Origin: Candidatus Endomicrobiellum agilis
GTDB taxonomy: Bacteria > Elusimicrobiota > Endomicrobiia > Endomicrobiales > Endomicrobiaceae
Length of the DNA: 37,513 nt
Reading direction: 5' to 3'
Assembly: GCA_020328155.1 (NCBI GenBank)
Contig: JAIXMX010000012.1
Location: forward strand, 1-37,513
Both the position numbers and the translations under genes were made by a program. The notes below the pieces were generated by a model. The model ran no database searches. It was not told the DNA's origin and saw only the letters and a program-made list of their open reading frames with translations. Below are positions 25,084 to 28,520 of the stretch, piece after piece. Position 1 is the first letter of the stretch. Each line of letters starts with the position of its first letter.

Positions 25084-25259
25084 ATTGTTATTGTTTCCCG
25101 TTTTTATATAACAGCAAATAAAAAATATTCCGTATGCGACAGCAGATTCTTGCTTCACCTAAAAGAACAGCAAAAACTTTAAGATATCCGTAAATCCCAC
25201 ATTTAATATCGTCTTCAAACCGCCTAAACGATCCTCAAAATCTTTTATTTGTCATCTCG

Positions 25260-25706
25260 TCAAATAATTTCAGTTTTTCCGCCGGCAGCTTTAATTTTGT
25301 CAAGCGCAGATTTTGAAAAGGCGGCGGCTTTCACTGTCAAAGGTTTGTTAATATCCCCAGAACCTAAAATTTTCACAAGCTTGATTTTGGCAACAAGATT
25401 CGCTTCTTTTAGCAGTACCGGAGTAACTTCGACGCCTACTTCAAATCTATTTAAATCATTAACGTTGATAATTTCATATTCTCTGCGGAACCGACTATTG
25501 TTAAAACCTCTCTTGGGAATCCTCCTAAAAATAGGCATCTGTCCGCCTTCAAAACCCACTTTTTTCGATCCGTCTCCCGAACGCGATTTTTGTCCTTTGC
25601 AACCGCGTGTGGAACTGCGACCGTGACCGGAACCCACCCCGCGCCCGACAATCTTTTTTCTGTGCTTTGAACCCTGTGCAGGCTTTAAATTATCTAAACC
25701 TATCAT
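25260..25706 (-). CDS. rplO: 50S ribosomal protein L15
   Basis: The 148-residue protein starts [20 protein letters not shown] and has the glycine-rich [20 protein letters not shown] and [19 protein letters not shown]. It ends in the globular L15/L18e-like fold ([20 protein letters not shown]). Its ATG overlaps the rpsE stop by four bases. In most bacteria rpmD (L30) lies between these two genes; here it is absent. Confidence 0.97.
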
Positions 25707-26206
25707 ATTTCCGCGACCTCTTTCCTTCTGATTTTAGCAACATCTTCTTTTAAGCGAAGCGCCTTGAGAGCCTCAATTGTCGCATAAGCTACATTAAAAG
25801 GATTAGAAGAACGCATTGATTTCGTAAGAATATCTTTTATTCCCACAGCTTCAAGCACTGCTCTTACAGCGCCGCCCGCAATAACGCCTGTTCCGGGAGC
25901 GGCAGGTTTCAACAAAACCTTTCCCGAACCTAAAACGCCAATTATTTCATGCGGAATAGTACTTCCTTTAAGACGAATAGGAATCATATTTTTTGAAGCA
26001 TGCACTCTACCTTTTTGAACCGCAGCCTGCACTTCGTTTGCTTTGCCAAGTCCACAGCCTACTTTTCCGGATCCATCACCTACAACCACCAAAGCGTTAA
26101 AAGAAAATCTCTTGCCGCCTTTAACAACTTTTGCCACTCTGTTAACGGCGACTACTGTTTCTTTTAAACCGCTGTCGTTTTGTTGTTGTCTTGATTGTTC
26201 AGCCAA
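25703..26206 (-). CDS. rpsE: 30S ribosomal protein S5
   Basis: The 167-residue protein contains the dsRNA-binding block [40 protein letters not shown] and the late [20 protein letters not shown]. It sits near the decoding centre and mRNA entry. The start is TTG at 26206, supported by a very strong AGGAGGAGG five bases upstream. It is the first gene after the 1.95-kb interruption of the spc operon, so it may need its own promoter or depend on read-through. Confidence 0.96.
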
Positions 26207-26211
26207 CTTAT

Positions 26212-26220
26212 CCTCCTCCT
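26212..26220 (-). promoter_or_regulatory. Strong Shine-Dalgarno site of rpsE
   Basis: On the minus strand AGGAGGAGG precedes the TTG start by five bases. The unusually strong site decides the start, since no ATG is available in this part of the frame, and may offset the weak start codon. Confidence 0.7.
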
Positions 26221-26322
26221 AAAACTGCACACCACTATTTCGACGTTATCTCTATCTCCGACCACTTCTAACATCTTTAGCTTCAATAAATTTTTCAATC
26301 TTTTATCTAAATCCGTTTCTTT

Positions 26323-27178
26323 CTATAGTACGGCATCGCTATCATCTAGCTTATTATAATCTACTTCTTGCATAGTTGATAAGTTCACAAGCAAACACAT
26401 CCTGACTCTTTTTAGTTCGTTCGCAGAAAGAGTGAAAAAGCAATTAGGCACATAGCCAAACAGCTCCTCTAACTTATCATTTCCTATTGTTACGATTAAA
26501 TGATTTGTCGCCGAGACTTATCCTACTAAAAAACATGTCTGGATACGTCTTCATCTTGTTTATAACATAACTAACTTCCTTGTGTATCTTTGTACCTCTG
26601 TCTGCTGCCTGTACTACAAGAGTATCGGGAGCCATTGATGTTATAAGTCCCTTTTGTTTAAGAAACGCAGTTACGCTTATTAGTTCATCGTCTGAGTACG
26701 CGTAGCCACTCTTGCACAAAGACACTCTCCTAGCTCTATCAAGTTCCTTCAGTAGGACATGCGGCACAGGTTTGCCCGTAAAATGTTACCTCGCTCTCCT
26801 CATTTGATAGCCGCCATAAATGAATGTTTCACACTCTATATCATAGCAGGAAGCAGAGGTGTAAGCTGCAGGTACAGTAAGCGGACATATGCCAGACGCC
26901 AAATTATTGGCAGAGTTGCGGTTACTATCAACACAATGCCCTACTAAAAAAACAATCCACACGCGGCGTCGGTTTCGGGCGATAACGCGAGCATGTTAGT
27001 GCTGTGATTAGTATTAAACACCTCGCTCTTGTTATTCTCGGTTTCACTTTCAGCGTAATGGTGGATAATTTCGTTGTGGTTATGGTGTTGTAAGCGGAGC
27101 CTTGCGACACACCCGATACGTGTAGAAAAACGACACTAGCATTATTGCTTGTATAATTGCTATAATCGTTTTTAACAT
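26323..27178 (-). pseudogene. Decayed gene of an exported protein inside the spc operon
   Basis: The ATG at 27178 begins a signal-peptide-like stretch (MLKTIIAIIQAIMLVSFF). A frameshift leads into ESETENNKSEVFNTNHSTN and LALSPETDAACGLFF with a stop. Further minus-strand frames carry NNLASGICPLTVPAAYTSAS, VTFYGQTCAACPTEG, the longest piece 26477-26767 (SGYAYSDDELISVTAFLKQK, then RGTKIHKEVSYVINKMKTYP) and GNDKLEELFGYVPNCFFTLS ending at TAG 26323-26325. The pieces are in order on one strand and look like a Cys-containing secreted protein of about 260-290 residues with several frameshifts. Family unknown. Confidence 0.5.
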
Positions 27179-27197
27179 TATCTATCTTCTTTTTTAC

Positions 27198-27510
27198 TCA
27201 ATCATTCTTTTCGTTATCCCAATGATAATCGCGCAATTTTTCAATTCTCTCGTTAACCTTGAGAGAAACTCCACTTTCCGCAATGGTAAAAACTTTAATT
27301 ACATCAAAACTCTTTTATTAAGTATTGTTTGTCTTTGACGGATTCCTGAATGTCAAAAACATTCAGCTCCATAAACCGCGCTCAACTGGCAACAACGCGA
27401 TTCAAGGACAGTCCTATACGATGTTTCCGTGCGGCTATTGCCTCGCTACCGACAACAAACTTTTCTGTCTTTTCAAATGAGGCGAAAATACTTAGAAGCG
27501 GGCTGCATTC
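27198..27510 (-). pseudogene. Second decayed gene inside the spc operon
   Basis: The minus frame from 27510 reads SIFASFEKTEKFVVGSEAIA, then an in-frame TGA, then MELNVFDIQESVKDKQYLIK and a stop. A neighbouring frame continues SFDVIKVFTIAESGVSLKVN to TGA 27198-27200, which lies 20 bases before the ATG of the next pseudogene. The 5' end is missing. I do not recognise the family. The tight spacing to the next remnant suggests the two were a gene pair. Confidence 0.45.
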
Positions 27511-27639
27511 TTAAAGCATCGGCAAACTCATCTGTTTACTTAGGAAACAAGAGCATACCAGCCATAAATAAACTATACAAGTCTCTGTAAAGGAAGAAGA
27601 AAAAGTTGAAGGAGGCGTTTATATCTTTTAAACGCACTC

Positions 27640-28015
27640 TATTCTCATAATTTAATATTTTTTTAATAATTCTTAAAGAATATTAATAATATTTTTTCAA
27701 TTTTATCATTTTTTTATCTTTTTCACAAATAAAAATATTGTTATTAAGCATACTTCTTTAGATTTATGCACAAAAGCATCAAAAAAAAGAATAGACACGA
27801 GACAGAAAAGAGAAAGAGCAGTTCTAGCATTAAATTGGAACATATTGTTTTATTTTCAAACAGTAAGAAGAGAAAAAAAACTATAAAACCGACGCGATAT
27901 TAAAAAAAACAAAATAAGACAAAGACTCCATAAGCACAAAAACGGTTAACATATAACTCAGTAGGAAAACAAAGATTATATATGCAAAATACAGAAAGAG
28001 TTTTTTGATAGATGA
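27640..28015. other. Very AT-rich stretch upstream of the operon-internal pseudogenes
   Basis: This part of the rplR-rpsE gap is mostly A and T with long T runs, imperfect palindromes (around 27669-27694) and no coding frame. GCGTTTA/TAAACGC forms a short hairpin at about 27616-27636. It could have held a promoter for the two remnants. From 28016 to 28160 nothing is recognised. Confidence 0.35.
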
Positions 28016-28160
28016 GTAATTACGGATAAGCGTTTATTTATTGACGTCTAAAGCGGACAATGTCAATTTAAATTCTGCGTCAGCTTAATTCTATACAACA
28101 CTTAAAAATAAAACAATACTTTTTCTTCATCCTCGCAAAAAGGGAGGAAAAAGAAATTTA

Positions 28161-28520
28161 TTAAAACTCAAGCCCGTTTTCTCTCGCGGTATCTGCAAGA
28201 GCTTTAATTTTACCAGTATATTCGTACCCCCTACGATCAAAAACAACTTTCTTCACGCCTTTTTCAACCGCTTTTTTGGCAATTAATCCGCCGACAGATT
28301 TAGCAGCTGCTACAGTATCGGTAACTTCAAATTTCCCTTTAAGTTCCGGCGACAATGTCGATGCCGAGGCAAGAGTGACGCCTTTGCCGTCGTCAATAAT
28401 TTGCGCATAAATATGTTTATGCCCGCGGTGAACGCTTAAGCGTGGTCTGTCAGCCGTTCCGTTAATTCTGTTTCTAACTCTCTTCACGCGGTAAGTAAAT
28501 CTTTTATTTGAATCTTTCAT
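28161..28520 (-). CDS. rplR: 50S ribosomal protein L18
   Basis: The 119-residue protein has the family blocks [40 protein letters not shown] and the C-terminal [20 protein letters not shown]. It binds 5S rRNA. It is the last gene before the 1.95-kb gap; normally rpsE follows within a few bases. Confidence 0.97.

Follow-up and report, generated by a model that had tools for sequence, protein, structure and literature searches.

A probable split of the spc operon between rplR and rpsE, with decaying and partly phage-type DNA in the rpsE leader

Judging from its sequence, the spc operon analyzed here has probably become two transcription units at the junction between rplR and rpsE, with decaying and partly phage-type DNA situated in the leader of rpsE. 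The window, i.e. the whole analyzed stretch of 37,513 nucleotides, is the entire contig C4 of a 1.29-Mb genome (G000; 23 contigs, 99.9% complete), and was compared most closely with the genomes of two sister species, G289 and G297. These organisms fall in the Endomicrobium group, known for termite-gut symbionts, and by its relatives and genome size the window species is probably one too; the junction lies in a normally tight ribosomal-protein operon. What can be read directly from the DNA is a clade-restricted gap, a conserved promoter-like island, a motif recurring upstream of other genes, and the remnant of an exonuclease gene. The features of the junction, in the direction of transcription, are as follows.

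28161 to 28520, minus strand: rplR (L18), intact, the last gene before the spacer; reading frame and gene order conserved in relatives
28117 to 28156, minus strand: hairpin directly 3' of the rplR stop codon (fold z -2.45), not called by the terminator scan
27600 to 28160, no strand assigned: AT-rich non-coding spacer (26% GC) holding the promoter-like island
27682 to 27742, minus strand: conserved island, kept in G289 and G297
27700 to 27728, minus strand: sigma-70 type candidate promoter with extended -10, TTGTGA-N17-TAAAAT, directed at rpsE
26230 to 27600 (boundaries approximate, about 1.4 kb), minus strand: decayed DNA (40% GC), found only in the window genome
26555 to 26686, minus strand: N-terminal remnant of a phage-type PD-(D/E)XK exonuclease (ELISVTAFLKQKGLIT...AADRGTKIHKE), identified by a profile match
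26207 to 26231, minus strand: conserved ribosome-binding region of rpsE, identical at 25/25 nt in G289 and 23/23 in G297
25703 to 26206, minus strand: rpsE (S5), intact, with a TTG start

The first-pass annotation had described a block of about 1.95 kb parting rplR from rpsE, and this was borne out, with 1,954 bp (26207-28160) lying between the two intact minus-strand genes. By comparing the junction across related genomes, as that annotation had also suggested, we found a gap of only 2-282 bp in 44 out of 46 relatives, a few uncertain start codons shifting the small gaps slightly. The two exceptions are the sister species G289 (648 bp) and G297 (718 bp). In a second, partly overlapping genome set the gap was 0-255 bp. 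The three genomes with the enlarged gap group together in a tree of rplF, rplR, rpsE and rplO (support 0.987), and the best relatives of rpsE in the named collection were Endomicrobium and other Elusimicrobiota MAGs. Since relatives keep rplR and rpsE close, the enlargement is, on this comparison, derived and restricted to the clade.

Other junctions of the cluster are long as well in all three clade genomes, namely rplC-rplD (321-423 bp) and infA-rpsM (431-654 bp, a span that includes rpmJ by reading of the alignment), while within the window no other cluster junction exceeds 431 bp. The rplO-secY spacer (window 25084-25259) measures 176 bp in the window genome versus 47 and 51 bp in the sister species. 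Another relative, G021, has a 282-bp rplR-rpsE spacer (C81, L006 2005-2289) with GC-rich palindromic sequence, as opposed to the AT-rich spacers of the window clade, so that this junction has been enlarged by more than one route in the genus.

Only two stretches of the block are clearly conserved in the sister species, i.e. the last 23-25 nt before rpsE and the island at 27742-27682, the rest of the spacer being unalignable to theirs. Identity within the island reaches 88% for a 43-nt stretch in G289 and 82% for a 61-nt stretch in G297. Against shuffles the island has a z of 7.9, while the remaining spacer stretches gave values of -1.6 to 1.1, within noise. Inside it, the hexamers TTGTGA and TAAAAT are spaced 17 nt apart with a TG ahead of the -10, as in extended -10 promoters, and the same motif is found at the matching position in G289 and G297, 273 and 398 nt before rpsE, respectively. 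It is absent from the compared rplR-rpsE spacers of relatives outside the clade. When the region was scanned with the plain consensus, seven promoter-like sites came up against 7.1 in shuffles, i.e. no excess, and two other candidates outscore 27728-27700 on hexamers alone; the case for a promoter consequently rests on conservation and motif class.

The motif class was traced through the genome by the pattern TTGN17TGATAAAAT, which occurs four times in the window genome (none for the reversed control pattern). These matches and perfect occurrences of the 19-nt core gave five sites for inspection besides the one at rpsE, and all five are intergenic, in sense orientation and 11-485 nt before a gene (gene names from reading the translations):

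196 nt before rpsB, sense
11 nt before def, sense
485 nt before purC, sense
126 nt before a transporter gene, sense
58 nt before an acetyltransferase-like gene, sense

Two of these sites are also present in G289, 177 nt before rpsB and 192 nt before purC. The purC leader thus differs strongly in length between the two genomes (motif at G000:C22:15110-15138, L216, and at G289:C16:113109-113137, L220). Some other matches in G289 and G297 fall within open frames, and the pattern alone is therefore no proof of a promoter. A mobile repeat was also considered for this short recurring sequence and rejected, as the repeat is the promoter motif itself. The first-pass annotation had asked how rpsE and the genes after it are transcribed past the block, and the conserved candidate promoter at 27728-27700 supplies the likely answer.

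Between the island and rpsE lies DNA of a different character. Searches of the decayed part across 41 + 18 genomes from the class and the genus found no relatives beyond weak matches, and it does not align to the sister spacers, including the additional 140-250 bp present in those. The block holds no intact gene: its longest sense open frame of 102 codons was reached by 11 out of 400 dinucleotide shuffles, and a codon-usage scan gave no clear tracing of coding frames. Pfam and PHROGs searches with the read-through pieces returned nothing usable (weak matches to DUF1418, DUF3370 and phrog_21532 (0.007) were discarded), nor were relatives found by phage and plasmid tblastn, IMG/VR scans, a phage DNA search or a solved-structure search. 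A replication-protein winged helix at 26530-26220 was dropped for want of any match, and inverted repeats near the block ends look like chance. Two frameshifted genes, one starting with a signal peptide, had been proposed here. These cannot be demonstrated; the supposed signal peptide (MLKTIIAIIQ...) runs into stops after a short distance and is without a relative, and a single remnant has a demonstrable origin.

This remnant, at 26686-26555, was detected with a profile seeded by the RecT-linked G139 exonuclease (L086) and proteins related to it. It matches profile positions 7-51 out of 141 (E 4.7e-7), and no other significant match came up when the whole window was scanned in six frames. It also resembles (41%, E 4.1e-5) the N-terminal nuclease domain of a large helicase-nuclease in the same genome (G000:C1:60674), a domain that in turn matches the phrog_298 exonuclease (3.7e-15), whose conserved N-terminal region (SVT ... 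RGTKIHKE) is present in the remnant. As the profile match ends at position 51, with nothing of the catalytic core further on in any frame, the sequence is best described as a remnant and not a member of the phrog_298 family. No RecT neighbor was found on comparing the block with loci L082-L086. Since the genus does have loci that combine RecT with such exonucleases, a phage source of the block is plausible, but none of these loci matches the remainder of the block; by sequence matches, 26686-26555 is the only piece of the decayed part with a demonstrable origin. The region around the helicase-nuclease (G000:C1:52000-70000, L046) is a defense-type cluster with OloA- and OloB-like genes, a type III methyltransferase and a PDC-S06 ATPase; the helicase-nuclease itself has 1,573 amino acids and carries its phage-type exonuclease domain near the N-terminus.

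Taken together, the spacer would have grown in the ancestor that the window species shares with its two sisters, and would there have come to hold a housekeeping-type sigma-70 promoter of the kind seen elsewhere in the genome. Two units would result, one ending at rplR and the other (rpsE-rplO-secY-adk-map-infA...) starting ahead of rpsE. The leader between promoter and rpsE would, in the window genome, hold DNA that includes the beginning of a gene for a phage-type recombination exonuclease and is eroding by truncation, frameshifts and stops. The transcript would thus run through about 1.5 kb of dead DNA on its way to rpsE, compared with leaders of 273 and 398 nt in the sister species. The operon may tolerate such DNA because it would be read through from the promoter and because rpsE is served by a strong ribosome-binding site of its own. 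This presumes that the promoter is active and the main source of rpsE mRNA. The decayed DNA may have entered as one insertion, although most of it had no relative in the collections searched. As a counterpoint to the split, a 1.5-kb untranslated leader would be costly and open to Rho-dependent termination. The first-pass view of an old insertion now eroding accordingly holds for the derived gap and for the decayed gene remnant in part of the block. It is not supported as a full account of the very AT-rich stretch, correctly noted by that annotation at 27600-28160, whose promoter-like island is common to the sister species.

A promoter that predates the inserted DNA is favored by its resemblance to housekeeping promoters elsewhere in this genome. 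The reverse, unlikely in our estimate, is that the promoter arrived with a phage-type insertion before the three species diverged, the genes of the insertion being almost fully lost in the sisters and the promoter kept as the driver of rpsE. Decayed DNA and promoter do share orientation, with the promoter upstream, and the promoter is confined to the clade with enlarged spacers, but the decayed part is unlike the extra DNA in the sisters, and given the housekeeping resemblance a phage source for the promoter is not needed. Its fullest form, in which a phage-derived promoter was captured to drive rpsE-rplO-secY and the essential operon now depends on it, with the parent element almost erased, is quite unlikely.

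A continuous operon, still read through from upstream promoters, with the insert as a long untranslated gap and the island having another role or surviving by chance, appears improbable. The long spacers elsewhere in the cluster (200-650 bp in the clade) fit such read-through, as does the terminator scan of the region, which found no classical terminator on the sense strand; the survival of the island in unalignable surroundings, and the same motif upstream of other genes, argue against it. The hairpin after rplR, a similar short stem core of which is visible in G289 and absent from G297, is possibly a transcript end or stabilizer and not a classical terminator. The leader RNA had no Rfam match above threshold and is not unusually stable (fold z -0.55), leaving a structured or autoregulatory leader unsupported by these searches. 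The strong site before the TTG start of rpsE had been read as compensation for the block; GGAGG and TTG are found in most genus members, and being that common they are ancestral and no response to an insertion. Finally, a contig wrongly joined across unrelated sequence is scarcely credible: the decayed part is unmatched in relatives, but rpsE is single copy in the genome, and the clade-specific island and 25 nt before rpsE are in the correct order, which would require two joins inside one spacer.

The split-operon interpretation thus concerns a highly conserved ribosomal-protein operon that appears divided in a reduced symbiont lineage with all its genes retained. Three sister stages (648, 718 and 1,954 bp) are at hand for comparison, making this a testable case of an essential operon tolerating dead DNA by means of its own probable promoter close to the break. 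The phrog_298 exonucleases share the N-terminal region with the remnant and adjoin RecT in related loci, whereas the remnant is without catalytic core, intact frame or recognized RecT neighbor. Studies of Endomicrobium and Endomicrobiellum genomes have reported pseudogenes and acquired genes as well as exposure to phages and plasmids (PMC8809381, PMC11257099); the likeness is dead DNA in a reduced symbiont genome, the difference its position inside an essential ribosomal-protein operon, so that the process is ordinary for such genomes and the place unusual. Internal promoters that split ribosomal-protein operons into sub-operons offer the other parallel, with a sigma-70 type promoter in the spc gene order ahead of rpsE-rplO-secY, but the candidate described here is found in one clade only, in an enlarged spacer, and with pseudogene DNA in the leader of one species.
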